This document shows, piece by piece, positions 3,601 to 19,286 of a stretch of 23,940 bases of DNA; position 1 is the stretch's first letter, and each line of letters begins with the position of its first letter. Where the stretch lies: positions 1 to 23,940 of IMG/VR virus record IMGVR_UViG_3300030451_002715. One strand, 5' to 3'. The DNA is from a virus. A program made the position numbers and the translations under genes. The notes below the pieces were generated by a model. It was given only the letters and a program-made list of their open reading frames with translations, had not been told where the DNA came from and made no database searches.

Positions 3601-5352
3601 ATGAGTTTAGACATTCGTCCAAATCCATCCGCGACGGGATCCGTAACGGGCGGCCTTGAATATAAAGGAAGTTATAACGCTACGACTAACAGTCCCGATT
3701 TAACTTCATCTGAAAAAGGGGACTTTTATATCGTCTCCGTTGGAGGAACTCTCGCGGGAGTAACTCTCGATGTCGGAGATCATATCGTATTTAATCAAGA
3801 CGCATCTTCTCCGATCACTTCTGCAATGTTTGATAAAATCGATAATACCGACGCAGTCGCAAGTGTCAACGGACAAACTGGACCCGTCGTTCTCGATACT
3901 GATGACATTTCCGAAGGAGTAGGAGCAACGAATCTTTATTATACGGACGGTCGATTTGATACTCGATTCGCTGCGAAAAATACGGGAGACTTGACCGAGG
4001 GATCAAATCTCTACTATACGAATGCACGATTTGATACCCAACTCGGAACAAAAGATACGGACAATCTCTCCGAAGGCAGTTCGAACTTGTATTATACGAA
4101 TGCTCGATTTGATACTCAACTCGGAACGAAGACAACTGATAATCTGACCGAGGGCAGTTCGAATCTGTATTATACGAACGCTCGGTTTGATGCACGTTTC
4201 GACACTCAACTCGGAACTAAAACGACTGATAATTTAACCGAGGGAAGCTCGAATCTCTACTATACGAATGCTCGATTTGATACTCAACTCGGAACAAAAG
4301 ATACGGGGGATCTAACCGAAGGATCGAACTTATATTATACGAATGCTCGATCGGATGCACGAATCGCAGCCGCAAATATGACAGATCTTAACGATGTCAA
4401 TTATACAGCGGGAGCGGGAATCGATGGACAGTTCCTTAAATATGTAAATGCGAATAATCGATGGGAAGCGGCGGCCGTTCCTGGTGGAGTGAGTTCCGTA
4501 AATGGAGACGCGGGTCCGAATGTCGTTCTCGATACTGACGATATATCCGAGGGATCTTCGAATCTGTATTATACGAATGCACGTTTCGACACTCAACTCG
4601 GAACGAAGACGACTGATAATCTGACCGAGGGAAGCTCGAATCTCTACTATACGAATGCTCGATTTGATGCTCGATTTGATACCCAACTCGGAACTAAAAC
4701 GACTGATAATTTAACCGAGGGAAGCTCGAATCTCTACTATACGAATACTCGATTCGATACTCAACTCGGAACGAAGACGACGGACAATCTAACCGAAGGA
4801 TCCTCGAACTTATATTACACGAACGCTCGATTCGATACTCAACTCGGAACGAAGGACACGGGAGACTTAAGCGAAGGCTCGAACTTGTATTACACGAACG
4901 CGAGAGCGGACGCGAGAATCGGAGCGGCGAATCTTACCGATCTTAACGATGTCAATTATACAGCGGGATCGGGTATCGATGGATATGTTTTAGAATATGT
5001 TCATGCTAATAATCGATGGGAAGCGAAGGAAGCGACGGGAGGAGGAGGAGGATCTCGTCCGACTGTAACAGAAATTACAAGCACACCATACACGATTTCG
5101 AATCCTTCGGCGTCGACATTAGAAGAGATTTATATGTGTGATACAGGAGCTTCGGCAGTAACTCTTCCAACTGCAATCGGAAACGAGGGAGTCAAGATTC
5201 AGGTCAAGAATAGAATCTCCTCTGCGATTACAGTAAGCGCACCAAATCCAGGAACTCAACAAACGATCGACGGTTCGAACTCTGTTTCGATTACGAGTCA
5301 ATATGAGAGTTTAACGTTCGTCTCTGATAATACGAATTGGAATATCATCTAA
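3601..5352 (+). CDS. Tail fibre with tandem NLYYTNAR repeats
   Basis: A 583-residue fibre-type protein preceded by AAGGAG. Residues 1-85 form an N-terminal part likely to attach to the tail. Residues about 86-475 are two copies of one module: SVNG...VVLDTDDISEG, a run of about 26-residue repeats centred on EGS(S)NLYYTNARFDTQLGTK, then TDLNDVNYTAG and NNRWEA. I count eleven NLYYT repeats, six in the first module and five in the second. NLYYT/DAR repeats are known from many phage tail-fibre shafts. Residues about 485-583 form a non-repetitive beta-rich C-terminal head (TVTEITSTPYTIS to NTNWNII), probably the receptor-binding or trimerising end. The stop overlaps the next ATG. Confidence 0.8.
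   Translation: MSLDIRPNPSATGSVTGGLEYKGSYNATTNSPDLTSSEKGDFYIVSVGGTLAGVTLDVGDHIVFNQDASSPITSAMFDKIDNTDAVASVNGQTGPVVLDTDDISEGVGATNLYYTDGRFDTRFAAKNTGDLTEGSNLYYTNARFDTQLGTKDTDNLSEGSSNLYYTNARFDTQLGTKTTDNLTEGSSNLYYTNARFDARFDTQLGTKTTDNLTEGSSNLYYTNARFDTQLGTKDTGDLTEGSNLYYTNARSDARIAAANMTDLNDVNYTAGAGIDGQFLKYVNANNRWEAAAVPGGVSSVNGDAGPNVVLDTDDISEGSSNLYYTNARFDTQLGTKTTDNLTEGSSNLYYTNARFDARFDTQLGTKTTDNLTEGSSNLYYTNTRFDTQLGTKTTDNLTEGSSNLYYTNARFDTQLGTKDTGDLSEGSNLYYTNARADARIGAANLTDLNDVNYTAGSGIDGYVLEYVHANNRWEAKEATGGGGGSRPTVTEITSTPYTISNPSASTLEEIYMCDTGASAVTLPTAIGNEGVKIQVKNRISSAITVSAPNPGTQQTIDGSNSVSITSQYESLTFVSDNTNWNII
3895..4920 (+). repeat. Tandem repeats coding for the fibre shaft
   Basis: Eleven units of roughly 75-90 bp, each coding for DNLTEGSSNLYYTNARFD-type sequence, lie inside the fibre gene. 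They sit in a higher-order duplication: 3856-4470 and 4489-5025 are two versions of the same module and differ in length by 78 bp, one repeat. Some units are nearly identical in DNA (for example around 4213-4281 and 4692-4756), which suggests recent copying or homogenisation, while others differ at synonymous sites. Confidence 0.85.
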
Positions 5353-7591: not shown

Positions 7592-9592
7592 ATGCAGAAT
7601 GAAATCCTTGGACGAGTCGCGTTCGCGGCTCAATATGCTCGACCGAACTCTAACGGCCGCGAGAGTTGGGAAGAAGCAGTCGAACGTGTCGTCCGAATGC
7701 ATAAAAAGAAATATCCGATGTTCCTGGATGAGATCGATCAAGCGTTCTCTTTAGTAAAGCAGAAACGAGTCGTCCCTTCTCAAAGATCGATGCAGTTCGG
7801 AGGAGTCGCGATCGAGCGTCGAAACATGAGACTTTATAACTGTACATATTCACCCGCGGATCGTCCTCGATTCTTCTCCGAGATGTTTTGGCTATTGCTG
7901 TGCGGATGCGGAACAGGATTCTCAGTTCGTCGACGCGATATCAAAAAGCTGCCGCGAGTGATCATCGAATCTCATTATACGAATCGACGGACGATGACGT
8001 ATCAAGTTAAAGATTCGATCGAAGGATGGGCAGAAGCTCTCCAAGCGTTGATCGATTCCTACTTCTTCACAGATTACTTTGATCACGCTTACGATTACGA
8101 ACTTGAGTTCGACTATTCTCGAATCCGTCCGAAAGGTTCTCCCATCTCTTCAGGAGGTCGGGCTCCTGGATACGAACCCTTGAAGACGTGTCTCGAATCA
8201 GTTCGATCTCTCCTTCGATCTCGCGAAGGTCAAAAGCTTCGATCGATTGATGTATTCGATTTGTGTATGAATCTCTCCGCGGCCGTCCTTTCAGGGGGAG
8301 TACGTCGATCAGCTTCGATCTGTTTATTCGATAATAATGATTCTCTCATGTTGAATGCTAAAGTAGGCGACTGGTGGAGAAGTCATCCGAATCGAGCGTA
8401 CGCGAACATCTCTGCGACGATCCCAACGGACGGGAGCGAACTTAAATCGATGACTGATCGAGTCATTAAATTGAATAAGCAGTGGGGAGAACCTGGATTA
8501 TATTTTACTGACTCTCCCGACTTCGGAACGAATCCATGTTGCGAGATCGGTCTATATCCTTTTCTCGTCGAGTCCGCTCTCGGAACTCATCAAACCGAGA
8601 TTCCTTTGACGATCTCTCGAAATCGAGACAAGCTAGAGCAAGGCGGATGGACTTGGAGAAGCGGTTGGGCAGTCTGCAATCTAACCGAGATCAATATGGA
8701 GAAGAATCGAACCGAAGAAGAGTTCCTCGAAGCATGCGACGCGGCCTCTTTTATCGGAACTCTACAAGCTGGATATACTGACACGGGATATCTCGGAGAA
8801 GTCTCGCGTCGAATCATTGAGCAAGAAGCATTGATCGGAGTCTCGTTGACGGGAATGTATTCGAATCCTGAACTCTCATTTAATCCCGAAGTACTTCGCG
8901 AAGGTGCCGAAATGGTACTCGATACGAATCGGAACGTCTCTCGTCATATTGCAATCAATTACGCTTCGAGATTGACGTGTATCAAACCAAGCGGAAACAC
9001 GTCGACGGTTCTCGGAACTTCCGCGGGTATTCATCCATTTCACGCGGAGAGATATATTCGAACGATGCGGATCTCGAAGGTGAATCCGATATGGGATCTC
9101 ATCAAAGAGAATCTCCCTGAAGCCGTAATCGATCTCGATGGAGATACGGGGATTATTCAATTCGCTTGTTACGGAGCGGGAGTCATTCGAGAAGATATCG
9201 ACGCTCGAACCCATCTCGAAAACGTCGCTCTCGTCCAATCGAATTGGGTAGAGTATGGATCGAGGGATTCTCGAATCGAGGGATTAAATCATAACGTCTC
9301 GAATACTTGTACAGTCAAGGAGAATGAATGGAACATGGTCTCCGATTGGTTATGGAAGAATCGAAGGAACGTCCGCGGAGTCGCTCTCCTCTCCGACTAT
9401 GGGGACACGGCTTATGAGAACGCACCTTATCAAACGGTTCATCCAGGTACCAAGCAAGAAGAGTTATGGACTCGACTCTCGGAACTCGATTGGAACTCCA
9501 TCGATTTAACTTCGGTCGGAGGAGATAATGATTCGATGTTAGTTGGAGGATGCGACGGATTGAAATGTGAACTCAATCTATCAAAATCTTAA
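7592..9592 (+). CDS. nrdJ: Adenosylcobalamin-dependent ribonucleoside triphosphate reductase (class II)
   Basis: A 666-residue monomeric-type class II ribonucleotide reductase that makes dNTPs for phage replication using B12 radical chemistry. Landmarks of the Lactobacillus-type enzyme are present: Cys84 in LYNCTYSP and Cys362 in VCNLTEIN (the redox-active pair), Cys316 with Asn314 and Glu318 in TNPCCEIGLYP (thiyl radical and base), and a C-terminal Cys654-x4-Cys659 pair that re-reduces the active site. GGVRRSASI (about 235-243) is also typical. The usual spacing between the radical Cys and the second redox Cys is about 11 residues in the Lactobacillus enzyme and a little longer in many phage enzymes; here it is 46, so there is an extra loop of about 25-35 residues. 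The 3' end overlaps the convergent gene on the other strand by 20 bases. Confidence 0.93.
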   Translation: MQNEILGRVAFAAQYARPNSNGRESWEEAVERVVRMHKKKYPMFLDEIDQAFSLVKQKRVVPSQRSMQFGGVAIERRNMRLYNCTYSPADRPRFFSEMFWLLLCGCGTGFSVRRRDIKKLPRVIIESHYTNRRTMTYQVKDSIEGWAEALQALIDSYFFTDYFDHAYDYELEFDYSRIRPKGSPISSGGRAPGYEPLKTCLESVRSLLRSREGQKLRSIDVFDLCMNLSAAVLSGGVRRSASICLFDNNDSLMLNAKVGDWWRSHPNRAYANISATIPTDGSELKSMTDRVIKLNKQWGEPGLYFTDSPDFGTNPCCEIGLYPFLVESALGTHQTEIPLTISRNRDKLEQGGWTWRSGWAVCNLTEINMEKNRTEEEFLEACDAASFIGTLQAGYTDTGYLGEVSRRIIEQEALIGVSLTGMYSNPELSFNPEVLREGAEMVLDTNRNVSRHIAINYASRLTCIKPSGNTSTVLGTSAGIHPFHAERYIRTMRISKVNPIWDLIKENLPEAVIDLDGDTGIIQFACYGAGVIREDIDARTHLENVALVQSNWVEYGSRDSRIEGLNHNVSNTCTVKENEWNMVSDWLWKNRRNVRGVALLSDYGDTAYENAPYQTVHPGTKQEELWTRLSELDWNSIDLTSVGGDNDSMLVGGCDGLKCELNLSKS

Positions 9593-11319: not shown

Positions 11320-11586
11320 TTACATTCCTAGCTCGAAGTACACGTCTTCGATCGCTTCGATAATTTCGGATTTATTGAAATCAATAATTGAACAGTAATA
11401 AACATAGCAGTCGTTCCCGCGTGGTATTTCAAGATCATCTGCCAATTGATTGTCTGCAGTCGTCCATACATGAATCGTTAAATGTTGAAAGTCGACTCTA
11501 AACTGCGACGATGAGAGTTTATCCAAATGTCGAGCGAGTTTAATCGAGTCGTATGAGTTGATTGTTGATTCGAGAAGTCGTTTCAT
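11320..11586 (-). CDS. Small early protein, paralogue B of the HTH-flanking pair
   Basis: An 88-residue acidic protein of unknown function, clearly related to the 73-residue protein two genes upstream: both open MKRL(L/K)EST, have a helical N-terminal third, a beta-rich centre and an ending of the form (S)xIIEAIEDVYFELGM. The ATG overlaps the HTH gene stop by four bases, and an AGGAG lies just upstream. The shared ends with a variable middle suggest duplication followed by divergence of the core. Confidence 0.6.
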   Translation of the reverse strand: MKRLLESTINSYDSIKLARHLDKLSSSQFRVDFQHLTIHVWTTADNQLADDLEIPRGNDCYVYYCSIIDFNKSEIIEAIEDVYFELGM

Positions 11587-11795
11587 TTCATGTACTCCTG
11601 GAAGTCGTTCGTTGTAAAAGTGGATCCAGTCATATTATTGACAGTCGCACAGAGTAAGAAGATAAAGGGCTTCGATGCTTTGTTTTTCTTGTTTAAGACG
11701 TTCGAGAGATGAGTTAAAGAATATCCCATATTGTCTGCAAGATGAGTTAAGTTATATCGATTCGATTTCAAGGCTGCTCGGATTTGATCTTTCAT
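11583..11795 (-). CDS. Small HTH regulator-like protein
   Basis: A 70-residue protein with a helix-turn-helix at about residues 15-35 (LTHLADNMGYSLTHLSNVL), the spacing of Cro/CI/XRE-type DNA-binding domains. The remaining half is a short helix plus polar tail, with room for a DNA-binding domain only. It sits between two paralogous genes in an operon transcribed away from the replication initiator, the position where phages keep Cro-like regulators. It may control the divergent promoter region at 12019-12176; this is inference. Confidence 0.6.
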   Translation of the reverse strand: MKDQIRAALKSNRYNLTHLADNMGYSLTHLSNVLNKKNKASKPFIFLLCATVNNMTGSTFTTNDFQEYMK

Positions 11796-11796
11796 A

Positions 11797-12018
11797 TTAC
11801 ATTCCTAGCATTTCATAACAAGCTTCGATGCACTCGATTAAAGAACCTCGATCAATAGAACAAGAATGATAATAGGATCCGTCGTTATCAAGCTCGAAGA
11901 TCGATCCAGTTACAATTCGATAAGGAGAATCCCAAAATTGACAAAGCAAGTTTTCAAGATGATTGAGAAGTTGAGAGTTCGAGTAAGATTTAACAGTTGA
12001 TTCTTTTAGACGTTTCAT
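11797..12018 (-). CDS. Small early protein, paralogue A of the HTH-flanking pair
   Basis: A 73-residue protein, first gene of the leftward operon, related to the 88-residue protein at 11320-11586: MKRLKESTVKSYS start, central Tyr/Ser/Cys-rich strand (YYHSCSIDRG) and LIECIEACYEMLGM end. The shared N and C termini against a shorter middle account for the size difference. It has an AAAGGAAATCGA ribosome site upstream. Function unknown; it could be a protein partner or antagonist of the HTH regulator encoded between the two copies. Confidence 0.6.
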   Translation of the reverse strand: MKRLKESTVKSYSNSQLLNHLENLLCQFWDSPYRIVTGSIFELDNDGSYYHSCSIDRGSLIECIEACYEMLGM

Positions 12019-12095: not shown

Positions 12096-12125
12096 ACTTT
12101 TTTTTGAAATAATTTTAAATATAAT

Positions 12126-12154
12126 TTGAAATGAGTTTAATTATAATATATAAA
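12126..12154 (+). promoter_or_regulatory. Rightward promoter for the replication operon, sigma70-like
   Basis: TTGAAA (12126-12131), 17-base spacer, TATAAA (12149-12154), followed within about ten bases by AAAGGAGG (12164-12171) and the initiator ATG at 12177. The region is very A+T-rich, so other -10-like hexamers (TATAAT at 12120 and 12142) exist without well-spaced -35 partners. TTTGAAAT occurs twice, 22 bases apart (12103 and 12125), and could be a regulator site. Confidence 0.4.
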
Positions 12155-12176: not shown

Positions 12177-12902
12177 ATGAAAGAATATGAAGTTCGAAAG
12201 CAGATCATGAAATCTGCTTTAACAGCGTCCGAGAAACTCGTTTTACTTGCGATCGTCTTAAAGGTCGACTGGACGACGTTCGAGGGGAAAGTCTCCGCAA
12301 AGGACATCTCTGAATTAATCTCGACGGGAGAGAGATCGATCAAACGAACGCTCTCCAAATTGACGAAGATCGGGGTCTTGAATCGAAGCTCGAAGAGGAT
12401 CGGACCCGAAGCGAACGAATCCGCTCTAACTAAAATCAACGTGTCATACCTTCCCTTACCTAGTGTTAAAGTTGACACTAGTGATAAGGTTGACACTAGT
12501 GATAAGATTGACACTGCCCCTAGTGATAAGATTGACACTACCCCTAGTGATAAGATTGACACTACCCCTAGTGTTAAAGTTAACACTACCCCTAGTGATA
12601 AGATTGACACCCGTATTAACAATAGTAACAATAATAATCAATATACTATCAATAATAACACGCGCGGAAACTGGATCGGATGGGGAGCAGTTCGAGAAGA
12701 GCAGAGAGAGGAAGAGAAGGAGACGAGTCTTCAAGGAAAGAAAGTTTACTCGTTTACATATCAATCGTCGATCAAGGATCCCGAAGAGCGTCTCCGAGCA
12801 GAGAATCATGTAAAGAAGAATTATCATAGACTCACTCGAAGCGATCGAGATAGACTCTTGAATCCCGATTTCACAAAGCCACTAATCAAAGCGAATCGAT
12901 AA
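12177..12902 (+). CDS. Replication initiator with N-terminal winged-helix domain and in-gene origin
   Basis: A 241-residue protein preceded by AAAGGAGG. Residues about 13-72 form a winged-helix DNA-binding domain (LTASEKLVLLAIVL, then ISTGERSIKRTLSKLTKIGVL), as in phage O-like initiators and Rep helix-turn-helix proteins. Residues about 96-145 are a tandem repeat (S-D-K-I-D-T-T-P), the translation of DNA iterons. Then come an Asn-rich stretch (about 147-161) from an A+T-rich tract and a basic C-terminal part (about 165-241), which may recruit the helicase loader encoded next. It probably binds the repeats in its own gene and opens the origin, as lambda O does. I infer the role from domain order, repeats and the following DnaC-like gene. 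Confidence 0.75.
   Translation: MKEYEVRKQIMKSALTASEKLVLLAIVLKVDWTTFEGKVSAKDISELISTGERSIKRTLSKLTKIGVLNRSSKRIGPEANESALTKINVSYLPLPSVKVDTSDKVDTSDKIDTAPSDKIDTTPSDKIDTTPSVKVNTTPSDKIDTRINNSNNNNQYTINNNTRGNWIGWGAVREEQREEEKETSLQGKKVYSFTYQSSIKDPEERLRAENHVKKNYHRLTRSDRDRLLNPDFTKPLIKANR
12461..12612 (+). repeat. Seven dyad iterons, candidate replication origin
   Basis: Seven 20-bp units with consensus TAGTGATAAGATTGACACTA start at 12461, 12479, 12497, 12521, 12545, 12569 and 12593. Spacing is 18, 18, then 24 bp four times, the longer units being separated by CCCC. Each unit is an imperfect palindrome (TAGTGTTAA / TTAACACTA is clearest in the unit at 12569). Units 1-3 overlap by two bases; unit 7 ends in CCC instead of CTA. 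All periods are multiples of three, so the reading frame is kept. They lie inside the initiator gene, as the O-binding iterons do in lambda. Confidence 0.85.
12616..12660 (+). other. A+T-rich tract beside the iterons, candidate unwinding element
   Basis: Directly after the last iteron, about 45 bases are almost only A, T and single C or G (TTAACAATAGTAACAATAAT and on), coding for an Asn-rich stretch. In lambda an A+T-rich tract next to the iterons is where strands first open; the same function is inferred here. Confidence 0.55.
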
Positions 12903-12928: not shown

Positions 12929-13918
12929 ATGCAGAATCTAAACGAATCATTACAATCCCTACTCCATGCAATCAAAAAGAAATCCGCGGGAGGGGAACCA
13001 ACCGACATCCAGGAACCGACTCCGATTCACTCGTTTCAACTCGAAGCAGAAAACCTCTTAATCAAGGAGGTCGTGATGGGAGTCCCGAAGGTGAAGATCA
13101 ACTTTCTTCCTTCCTGTAATTACAACGGATGCACCGATTCACACTCTCACATTCATATTCGGCAAGAGGAGAAGTTTTTCGATGATCTCCGAGAGTATGT
13201 ACCAAAGATGATTAAAAACGACGATGGAGAGGAAATTGAAGACGTTTCCGCTCGTCCCTTCGGATTGATTGAAGACGGCGGCCTATGGGAACCGATCAAG
13301 ACTCGATATACTTTCGCGGTTCCTTGTCCATACTGCGGATTAACAAATCAGTATCTTCTTCGATTCCGAAGTTCTGGATTGACTGCCCAAGCGATCGATA
13401 AACATCTCGGAAACTATGATTTCGAAGACGGCCTTGAATCTCTCGCTCATCGATTCGCGGACGGGAAAGTTCGAGGAGGATTGATTCATGGACATACGGG
13501 AAATGGAAAAACTCACCTCCTCGCTGGACTTGCTAGGGAGATGATCTGGAGAGGGAAACGAGTTCGTTATGTTTCGCATCAATCCCTCCTCGAACGAATC
13601 AAACAATCATTCGACGATAAATCGGACGTTAAAGATCCTCGGTATACTTGGCTTGATAAAGTCGACGTGGTGTTCTTCGATGAGTTGGGATTCTTTAGAG
13701 CTAATGAATGGGGAACTCAAACGACGAACGAATTGATCCATGCTCTTTACGAATCCGGAGTTCAAGTCCTCTTCGCTTCGAATCTCTCTCCGCGGGAAAT
13801 GAAACGACGCTTTCTTGATATTCGATCGCAGTCGAGACTCGCGGAGATGTGCGGAGAGTTCCTCTTCGAGATGAAAGGACGAGATCGAAGAGGGAATGTC
13901 GAAGGGTTCTTCTCATAA
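12929..13918 (+). CDS. DnaC-like AAA+ helicase loader
   Basis: A 329-residue protein with AAAAAGGAG upstream. The C-terminal half is an AAA+ ATPase of the DnaC/IstB type: Walker A GHTGNGKT (188-195), Walker B VVFFDELGF (247-255, Asp251-Glu252), sensor I Asn285 in FASNLSPRE, and a candidate arginine finger near Arg303 (RSQSRLAEM). The N-terminal part has Cys63, Cys68, several His (72-76) and a CPYC pair (133-136), suggesting a bound metal. It should load the host or phage replicative helicase at the origin in the preceding gene. No helicase gene is seen here, so the host DnaB is the likely partner. The gap from the initiator stop is 26 bases. Confidence 0.88.
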   Translation: MQNLNESLQSLLHAIKKKSAGGEPTDIQEPTPIHSFQLEAENLLIKEVVMGVPKVKINFLPSCNYNGCTDSHSHIHIRQEEKFFDDLREYVPKMIKNDDGEEIEDVSARPFGLIEDGGLWEPIKTRYTFAVPCPYCGLTNQYLLRFRSSGLTAQAIDKHLGNYDFEDGLESLAHRFADGKVRGGLIHGHTGNGKTHLLAGLAREMIWRGKRVRYVSHQSLLERIKQSFDDKSDVKDPRYTWLDKVDVVFFDELGFFRANEWGTQTTNELIHALYESGVQVLFASNLSPREMKRRFLDIRSQSRLAEMCGEFLFEMKGRDRRGNVEGFFS

Positions 13919-16689: not shown

Positions 16690-18057
16690 ATGGATTTAAA
16701 ACTCAATGAACTTCAGAAGAATATAATCGCTCGAATCCGTCGAAGGGACAAAGTGATCGCCGCTCGATGCGGATGGGGAAGCGGAAAGACGAGCGGACTC
16801 GTATTCGCTCTATGGTTTATTAGTCGGATTCGTCCGGGGACATCCTCTCTTCTGATTACGGACACGTCTCCTCGTTATCGATCGGTTCTTGGTCCTGAGT
16901 TGGAGAAGTGGTTAGGTCCTCTCGGATGGACTTTCAACGCTTTAGAGTCGAAGTGGACTTGTCCGATCACGTCTTCCTCGATATGGTGTCGATCATACTT
17001 CCGTCCAGGGACGAGAGAAGCAACTCACAATCCGCTCGAAGGATTGAACATAACGAGCGGAGTCGCGTTGATCGATGAATGTCAAACATTCCGATCCGAC
17101 GAAGTTGCTCAAAAAGCTTTAGGTCGTCTTCGAAGCGGACCTTCTCCGATTCTGATTCTCGTCGGACTTCCCGTCGCGGACGCTTGGTGGTGTCAACTCG
17201 CTGAAAAAGCGGAATACGATCCTCTCCTCTTTACGTCATACGTCAACGAAGACAACCTTTCCGAAGAGTGGTTTGAAGCGACAAAACTTCTCCCCGAAGA
17301 AGAGCGGCTCGCGATGGTAATGAATAAGCCACGTCCTCCAAGCGGATTGATTTATAACGATTGGACGGAGAGTCACGTCATCGACGATTTCAAATACAAA
17401 GAGAGTATGTCGGGACGGATCGCGATCGATTGGGGATTCAGGAAGCCGTCCGTTTTGATCATGGTATACGACGAAGAGCGAGAAGCGACGATCATCGTTC
17501 ATGAGATCAATCCCCAAGAAGTCACGATTAAAGAACTCGCTCGAATGATTCTCTTAATCGCTTGGCCTCGATCCCTGAAAGCGTCCGCTCCTTCGAACCG
17601 AATATGGTTAGATAGTGGGATTGCGGATAAAGCGGGAAACGCTCGAAACGATCAAACAGGGAGAACGGCCTTTCGGGAAATCATGAAGAGACCCGAAGAA
17701 GGAGGAATCGGACTCCCGATTCGATATACAACCGATCCAGTTTTGACGAACGTCTTGAACGGAATCCAAAAAGTAAAACGAGCGATCTCTCGAAGAAAGT
17801 ATCTATGCACTCGCGAAGTGTGGATTCAGGGAGAACGAGCAATCGGGAACTCATTCCGAAAAGCTATCCTCTCCTACGGTTGGAGCGAGACGAAAGACGA
17901 ACCGAAGAAAGACGGAAGAGAAGATCCGCTCGACGCTCTTCGATACGATTGTATTATTCATTACTGGAGTGATCTCTCGACTCCATCATACACTCCAAAA
18001 CGAACTCGATCGACGGAAAGAAAAGGTCGACGAATTGGAAGAAAGGTCGACTTTTGA
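16690..18057 (+). CDS. terL: Terminase large subunit
   Basis: A 455-residue packaging motor. The ATPase domain has Walker A GWGSGKT (28-34), Walker B VALIDE (125-130) and a coupling-type segment LILVGLP (155-161). The nuclease domain is RNase H-like, with candidate metal ligands Asp247 (IAIDWGFRK), Asp308 (IWLDSG) and Asp412/415 (EDPLDALRYD). It cuts concatemeric DNA and drives it into the prohead through the portal encoded downstream. The length is normal for the family. The C terminus is very basic (TRSTERKGRRIGRK), as expected for DNA or portal contact. Its stop overlaps the methyltransferase TTG start (TTGA). Confidence 0.92.
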   Translation: MDLKLNELQKNIIARIRRRDKVIAARCGWGSGKTSGLVFALWFISRIRPGTSSLLITDTSPRYRSVLGPELEKWLGPLGWTFNALESKWTCPITSSSIWCRSYFRPGTREATHNPLEGLNITSGVALIDECQTFRSDEVAQKALGRLRSGPSPILILVGLPVADAWWCQLAEKAEYDPLLFTSYVNEDNLSEEWFEATKLLPEEERLAMVMNKPRPPSGLIYNDWTESHVIDDFKYKESMSGRIAIDWGFRKPSVLIMVYDEEREATIIVHEINPQEVTIKELARMILLIAWPRSLKASAPSNRIWLDSGIADKAGNARNDQTGRTAFREIMKRPEEGGIGLPIRYTTDPVLTNVLNGIQKVKRAISRRKYLCTREVWIQGERAIGNSFRKAILSYGWSETKDEPKKDGREDPLDALRYDCIIHYWSDLSTPSYTPKRTRSTERKGRRIGRKVDF

Positions 18058-19286
18058 AATTAATTAATGGAGATTCATTCGAAGTATTAAAGGAACTCGA
18101 AAGCGATTCGATCGATTCAGTCGTAACCGATCCTCCTTACGGATTGAGTCAAGTCTCGTCGAAAGCGTTTAACGAATGTATGTTAAAGTGGTGTACGAAC
18201 GACCGCTCCTTTATGCCAAGAGTCAAAGGGTTTATGGGGAAGAGTTGGGATGCGTTCGTTCCTCCTCCTTCATTATGGGATGAAGTGTTTCGAGTATTGA
18301 AGCCTGGAGGACACGCTCTCGTCTTCGCGGGATCAAGAACGCAAGATCTTATGGGATTAAGTCTTCGGCTTTCAGGGTTCGAGATTCGAGACTGCATTCA
18401 ATGGATTTACGGAAGCGGTTTCCCGAAGTCATTGAATATCGGAAAAGCGGTCGATAAGATTCAAGGGAACGAGAGAACGTCTTTCGGGAGGAGTCCAAAC
18501 AGTCGAGAGAACTGCGATAAATCAAACACGTTATATAAAAGCGGAACGGTCGGGAAAACTTTCCAAATCACAAAAGGCGAATCGAAGTGGGAAGGATGGG
18601 GAACCGCTCTCAAACCCTCCTTCGAACCCGCGATCCTAGTACGAAAACCGTTTCGAGGATCCGTCGCTCAGAACGTCCTCGATCATGGAGTCGGAGGGAT
18701 TAATATCGACGGATGTAAAATTCATGCCGACGATGTTCCCGAAGGTAGATCAAGAAACGGAGGAGGGTTAATAAACGGATTTAGCTTTCAACTTCCTGAT
18801 AGTAAATCTTATATGTCCGCGGGTCGATGGCCTTCAAACGTCCTCCTCTCCGAAGACATCAAAGAAGAGTGGACAAGGTTCTTCTATTGTCCGAAAGCGT
18901 CGAGAGAGGAACGAGAGATGGGACTCGATGGATTCGAGAAGAAAAAAGCGGGAGCGATGAGAGGAGAAGAGACTCGTCCAAATAAACCGAGTAATCATCC
19001 AATAAGAGCGAACATTCATCCAACCGTAAAACCGATCGATCTAATGAAGTACCTTTGTCGATTAATCACTCCTCCAGGGGGAACCGTCCTCGAACCGTTT
19101 ATGGGGAGCGGATCGACGGGAATCGGAGCGATCAAAGAAGGCTTCGACTTTATCGGAATCGAAAGAGAGGAAGAGTATTTCGAGATCGCGAAAGCAAGAA
19201 TCGAATACTGGACGTCGATCGATCTGACTTATGAAGACAACGAGGAGAAGGTCGTCGGAGAGCAGCTTTCTTTATTTGGGAATTAA
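18054..19286 (+). CDS. DNA N6-adenine/N4-cytosine methyltransferase with clamp-binding-like C-terminal motif
   Basis: A 410-residue amino-methyltransferase that modifies phage or host DNA with S-adenosylmethionine. The catalytic motif DPPYG (26-30) precedes the cofactor motif EPFMGSGSTG (347-356), the beta-class order. Between them lies a large recognition region (about 100-310) including IYGSGFPKSLNIGK, common in phage enzymes. The last residues are EQLSLFGN, matching the QL(S/D)LF consensus for binding the bacterial beta sliding clamp, after an acidic linker. The start is TTG overlapping the TerL stop, with a GAAAGG site. It may protect phage DNA from host or phage nucleases; specificity cannot be read from sequence, though GATC and TCGA are frequent here. 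Confidence 0.9.
   Translation: MKLINGDSFEVLKELESDSIDSVVTDPPYGLSQVSSKAFNECMLKWCTNDRSFMPRVKGFMGKSWDAFVPPPSLWDEVFRVLKPGGHALVFAGSRTQDLMGLSLRLSGFEIRDCIQWIYGSGFPKSLNIGKAVDKIQGNERTSFGRSPNSRENCDKSNTLYKSGTVGKTFQITKGESKWEGWGTALKPSFEPAILVRKPFRGSVAQNVLDHGVGGINIDGCKIHADDVPEGRSRNGGGLINGFSFQLPDSKSYMSAGRWPSNVLLSEDIKEEWTRFFYCPKASREEREMGLDGFEKKKAGAMRGEETRPNKPSNHPIRANIHPTVKPIDLMKYLCRLITPPGGTVLEPFMGSGSTGIGAIKEGFDFIGIEREEEYFEIAKARIEYWTSIDLTYEDNEEKVVGEQLSLFGN

Follow-up and report, generated by a model that had tools for sequence, protein, structure and literature searches.

In phage lambda, the initiator O binds four iterons that lie within its own gene, and the adjoining A+T-rich tract opens on binding (PMC5043065, PMC7466680). 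In work that reaches us through its citation in PMC7466680, the two iterons nearest the tract were sufficient in vitro. How the binding energy of an iteron array is converted to strand opening is still described as an open question (PMC5043065). A related organization is known from the Bacillus phage SPP1, the oriL origin of which comprises repeats and an A+T unwinding element in the initiator gene 38, with the loader gp39 acting together with gp38 (PMC6316719). In iteron plasmids such as RK2, F and P1, the repeats that bind the initiator lie beside an A+T tract, a position that the repeats of the locus described here also have, and the plasmid tract may hold conserved short repeats (PMC4081077).

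We analysed one IMG/VR contig, 23,940 bp in length, from an uncultured bacterial virus (the window). It contains what is very probably a lambda-type phage replication origin located inside the gene of its own predicted initiator (Table 1). As in lambda, P22 (gene 18), mEp213 and mEp043, inverted-repeat iterons lie midway along the initiator gene, an A+T tract follows downstream and a loader or helicase gene comes next. The lambda group also shares with the family of the window a homologous N-terminal winged helix, short-then-long gaps between the iterons and the presence of copies in different reading frames. Unlike that group, the window has seven copies rather than four, a different dyad, no detectable C-terminal homology, a DnaC-like loader where lambda has P, and a tract that holds WCAAT boxes at intervals of about 10 bp. 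The lambdoid phage mEpX1 resembles the window in that its O-type initiator gene contains iterons and stands directly before a gene with the annotation of a DnaC loader, but it has four iterons of another sequence and a 123-bit Pfam match, whereas the match of the window is below threshold. Compared by description only, SPP1 is similar in having an origin inside an initiator gene together with a helicase loader, and differs in that its repeats are direct and that it has an additional origin, oriR.

Table 1. Coordinates of the features of the candidate origin region in the window
Feature	Position	Strand	Basis or remark
Initiator gene, lambda O-like, 241 aa	12177..12902	+	ORF, Pfam/PHROG and profile comparison
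N-terminal winged-helix DNA-binding domain, aa 1-88	12177..12440	+	AlphaFold, Foldseek
Iteron 1, TAGTGTTAAAGTTGACACTA	12461..12480	none	
Iteron 2, TAGTGATAAGGTTGACACTA	12479..12498	none	
Iteron 3, TAGTGATAAGATTGACACTG	12497..12516	none	
Iteron 4, TAGTGATAAGATTGACACTA	12521..12540	none	
Iteron 5, TAGTGATAAGATTGACACTA	12545..12564	none	Same letters as iteron 4
Iteron 6, TAGTGTTAAAGTTAACACTA	12569..12588	none	Nearest to a perfect dyad, 8/9 pairs in the 18-bp core
Iteron 7, TAGTGATAAGATTGACACCC	12593..12612	none	Adjoins the A+T tract
A+T-rich tract, predicted unwinding element	12613..12660	none	
Four WCAAT boxes (12619, 12628, 12638, 12649)	12619..12653	+	Gaps 9, 10, 11 bp
C-terminal helical domain, presumed loader contact	12774..12881	+	Modelled helices; co-inheritance with loader
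DnaC-like AAA+ helicase loader	12929..13918	+	PHROG 50, 9e-35

The array consists of seven 20-bp imperfect dyads at 12461-12612, the successive starts of which are 18, 18, 24, 24, 24 and 24 bp apart. Neighbouring iterons 18 bp apart have a CTAG in common, and those 24 bp apart are separated by an added spacer with CCC. Between 5 and 8 of the 9 positions pair in each 18-bp core, mostly 6. When the whole 23,940-bp record was searched with the core pattern at up to three mismatches, 9 matches were found against a mean of 0.12 in shuffled sequence; these comprise the seven iterons and two opposite-strand palindrome echoes of iterons, with no further copies outside the array. The coordinates and this search confirm the palindromes and their 18-then-24 spacing as an earlier note on this DNA had described them, and the order that it gave, with the array inside the initiator coding sequence followed by the A+T tract and then the gene for a DnaC-like loader, also stands. 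The iterons of the window contain TTGACA, and iteron 7 forms with an AACAAT in the tract a sigma-70-like pair (12604-12632, 10/12 positions). The minimum of GC skew was discarded as an origin marker, as the cumulative skew climbs almost steadily along the record and does not turn at the array.

The N-terminal part of the initiator matches the Pfam family Phage_rep_O (PF04492) with 24.2 bits (5e-5) and is missed at the cut-off of 28.7, although two PHROG replication-initiation families match at 7e-10 and 8e-8. Phage_rep_O is matched at E<=0.01 by 16 of 24 family members. In a profile-profile comparison (hhalign) of the family with 12 lambdoid O proteins, residues 5-84 align over 80 columns with a probability of 96.9% and an E-value of 1.6e-10; the C-termini give no alignment in the same comparison. 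On this profile evidence the N-terminal domain is homologous to that of lambda O, and the initiator, which shares this domain, would work as O does, although we stop short of assigning it to PF04492 in the strict sense. The AlphaFold model of the domain (block pLDDT mostly 85-94) has the order helix-helix-strand-helix-helix-strand-strand, and its best Foldseek matches are MarR-like winged helices. The confidence of this model and the match to the lambdoid profile uphold the winged-helix initiator proposed from the sequence. In the model, residues 97-187, which are encoded by the array and the A+T tract, are predicted to be disordered, and C-terminal helices follow at 202-214, 221-228 and 230-233. 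In the loader, Bac_DnaA and IstB ATPase domains pass the Pfam cut-off, and identity to 12 aligned relatives is 59-77%. The loader is of the DnaC/IstB/DnaA AAA+ type and is not homologous to lambda P (Pfam PF06992).

With the initiator and the loader as queries, we recovered from other contigs 24 further initiator genes that are readable over all or almost all of their length; a repeat array and an A+T tract could be assigned in every one of them. There is no close relative in the annotated phage collection, and searches of genome contigs, phages and plasmids for the identification of a host gave only distant matches to the ATPase domain. The arrays fall into four dyad types: A, that of the window (AGTG..CACT); B (TGACAA..TTGTCA); C (GTATCA-4-TGATAC); and D (GTGTCA-4-TGACAC), of which L070 has the most degenerate array. 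The final copy in the type B array of L012 (TGACAGGATGGTCC, 24 bp downstream) was missed by the automatic assignment and seen on inspection. Identity between N-terminal domains of the same type averages 73-77% (types A, B and C); across types it is 39-50%. Eight GTATCA-4-TGATAC (type C) dyads, one of them out of frame, also lie in an initiator gene at 5440-5626 of L104. This unrelated phage fragment encodes a DnaD-like initiator followed by a DnaC-like loader, and the terminal gaps of its array are 24, 23 and 22 bp; the arrangement therefore reaches beyond the family of the window.

What is conserved in these arrays is the DNA. In types C and D, dyad copies occur in two reading frames of one gene, at gaps of 16, 17, 22 and 23 bp; in an array with gaps of 17, 16, 23, 22 and 24, for example, one DNA word encodes either GIKSDT or VSKPIP. 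Lambda iterons likewise shift frame, every copy in types A and B lies in a single frame, and the encoded peptides vary widely among relatives. As a test of synonymous constraint, we scored third-position mismatches at residues conserved between two phages. In type C the mismatch is 0.354 in the N-terminal domain (n=557) versus 0.012 in the dyad arms (n=166), a roughly thirty-fold reduction, and 36% of all positions differ in the dyad centres. For the window and its type A relatives the values are 0.494 (n=162) and 0.089 (n=45), a roughly five-fold reduction. All seven Ser codons in the array of the window are AGT, whereas elsewhere among its genes this codon accounts for 10% of Ser (P 8e-8). 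Within a single array, some of the codon uniformity could stem from tandem duplication, which does not, however, explain conservation between phages.

Against a codon-resampling null, perfect dyads with 6-bp arms are in excess in the window (P 0.006), in types C and D and, within type B, in L012; the rest of type B and most of the type A relatives show no excess. In these type A and B arrays dyad symmetry is therefore weak, and repetition and codon constraint carry the case. The perfect-arm count is too strict for imperfect dyads to serve as a general test, and the synonymous-site test was used instead. Taken on the sequence comparisons, selection is preserving the repeated DNA and not the encoded protein repeat. 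The earlier note had held the peptide repeat SDKIDTTP to be a by-product and had proposed, as a check, that related phages be compared for repeats kept as DNA with synonymous change suppressed. Both points are borne out: frame changes break the peptide repeat and leave the dyad, and the mismatch falls from 0.49 to 0.09 in the type of the window and from 0.35 to 0.01 in type C. When we looked for homologues that keep the peptide repeat but lose the dyads, we saw the reverse, with dyads kept while the peptide changes.

Four pairs of natural recombinants separate the two ends of the initiator. Identities in the N-terminal domain, the C-terminus and the loader are 46%, 100% and 100% for L060/L012, 35%, 96% and 98% for L003/L068, 41%, 97% and 98% for L059/L066, and 48%, 97% and 100% for L069/L070. 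The dyad type switches with the winged-helix domain in all four pairs. At the DNA level, the members of a pair are about 60% identical in the N-terminal domain and 47-59% in the array, and identity rises again to 97-100% in the part that encodes the C-terminus. Each recombinant, taken singly, could have arisen by chimeric assembly; the combination in L060 was found again in a second metagenome (L061). Such co-switching is what one would expect of an N-terminal domain that recognizes the dyads and a C-terminus that engages the loader.

The A+T tract is 80% A+T across 50 bp and is the least stable 50 bp in the initiator gene. Among 40-bp stretches of the whole record it ranks fourth, the least stable being 12113-12152, immediately upstream of the initiator gene. 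That stretch, between divergent genes, holds a near-perfect 22-bp tandem (TTTGAAATAAGTTTAAATATAA, two copies, 12103-12147), which is a possible operator or promoter. The tract itself contains a tandem of period 9 (12617-12660). ACAAT-like boxes are present in the tracts of all family members, and in types C and D they lie at offsets 3, 13, 24 and 34 from a conserved CATACA. Third positions of the first two boxes differ at 0 of 409 sites, compared with 50% in the C-terminus, among pairs with diverged C-termini. The box pattern was noticed post hoc, and the count of the word ACAAT against synonymous resampling gives modest P values of 0.003 to 0.5.

At the level of sequence, these comparisons establish the array, its conservation as DNA, its co-inheritance with the N-terminal domain, its fixed position beside a constrained tract and the joint inheritance of C-terminus and loader. 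The lambda-type origin in the initiator gene that the earlier note proposed thus gains support from DNA conservation, from the recombinants and from homology to lambda O. From lambda we infer how it may work. The winged-helix domain would bind the seven dyads, probably as one dimer on each, and the bound array would bend or twist the DNA such that the adjoining A+T tract opens on supercoiled DNA (PMC5043065). The opened strand would then pass from the C-terminal helical domain to the DnaC-like loader, the loader would load the host replicative helicase, and replication would start at the array.

The dyads could instead form an autoregulatory operator, at which the initiator or a repressor blocks transcription of its own operon while replication starts elsewhere. 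The kinship of the initiator fold to MarR repressors would suit such a role, as would the TTGACA in type A repeats and the -35/-10-like pair across the last repeat and the tract. However, promoter-like matches are not in excess (3 versus 3.2 expected from shuffles), the seven spaced copies sit 285 bp inside the gene, and comparable arrays in the lambda precedent are origins. Nor would an operator explain why the A+T tract is fixed and why a helicase loader is linked to the array, and we consider this reading highly improbable.

Selection for SDKIDTTP as a flexible linker rich in Asp, Ser and Thr, with the DNA repeat incidental, would fit the predicted disorder of the segment and the single frame of all type A and B copies. 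This reading is contradicted by the two-frame copies of types C and D, which encode unrelated peptides, and the near-frozen third positions and the wide peptide differences among relatives also speak against it, so that it is extremely improbable. Centromeres can also be iteron arrays, and the array might accordingly be a partition centromere, or else a recombination or packaging site. This we find scarcely credible, given that no convincing partition or integrase protein was seen among the ORFs scanned, that the array co-varies with the initiator N-terminal domain and that the terminase genes are 3 kb away.

Returning to the array as an origin, we compared its spacing with that of other O-type systems. 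The change from 18 to 24 bp, which the earlier note took to be unusual, is not: short gaps followed by gaps of 22-24 bp are common, being found in lambda, P22, mEp043, mEp213, Edno5 and all four dyad types. The gaps are 20, 24 and 23 in lambda (iterons as annotated in the record), P22, mEp043 and mEp213, which have four different iteron sequences; the P22 values come from a separate reading, as the regular-expression search for gaps misses most copies in P22 and PhiR12_1. The gaps are 20, 24, 24 in mEpX1, 19, 24, 23 in PhiR5_1, 18, 24, 23 in Pmp10 and 17, 18, 24, 24 in Edno5. Within the family, they change from 18 to 24 in type A, from 15 to 24 in type B and from 16-19 to 22-24 in types C and D. 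Exceptions are the flat gaps of HK225 (21, 21, 21) and its Klebsiella relative, L060 (first gap 24) and Tr60_Ab31 (33, 23). The conserved spacing may in part reflect descent.

A gap of 18 bp corresponds to 1.71 helical turns and one of 24 bp to 2.29, deviations from two turns that are equal and of opposite sign. The geometric rule would be that gaps far from the tract are under two turns and those on the tract side over two turns. If bound dimers were aligned on one face, the far part would be overwound and the tract-side part unwound, and the WCAAT boxes, which number four and follow each other at intervals of about one turn, might be a sequence-specific element for opening or strand capture. 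With low confidence, we propose that a sequence-independent rule for O-type origins (15-20-bp gaps far from the tract, 22-24-bp gaps beside it) acts, in the family of the window, together with such a WCAAT element to produce local unwinding on binding. The sufficiency of the two tract-side iterons of lambda fits fixed gaps beside the tract. We found no description of the gap rule in the literature searched, the coverage of which excludes older subscription papers, and claim no priority. When the four natural domain swaps and the four dyad types are compared on their common scaffold, dyad sequence, peptide and copy number are free, and the tract-side gaps of 22-24 bp and the WCAAT boxes are fixed. 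These free and fixed features suggest concrete mutants and provide a signature for locating origins in uncultured phages.

Elsewhere in the record, two similar small proteins (MKRLLEST.. and MKRLKEST..), neither of which has a Pfam family, lie on either side of a small HTH protein on the minus strand at 11320-12018. The gene at 3601-5352, which has 78/90-bp tandem repeats (SSNLYYTNARFDTQLGTKTTDNLTEG), likely encodes a tail fibre, and a phage-encoded ribonucleotide reductase (PHROG 367, 8e-103) lies at 7592-9592. An N6/N4-type DNA methyltransferase (PF01555, 1e-26) lies at 18054-19286, between the terminase and portal genes.
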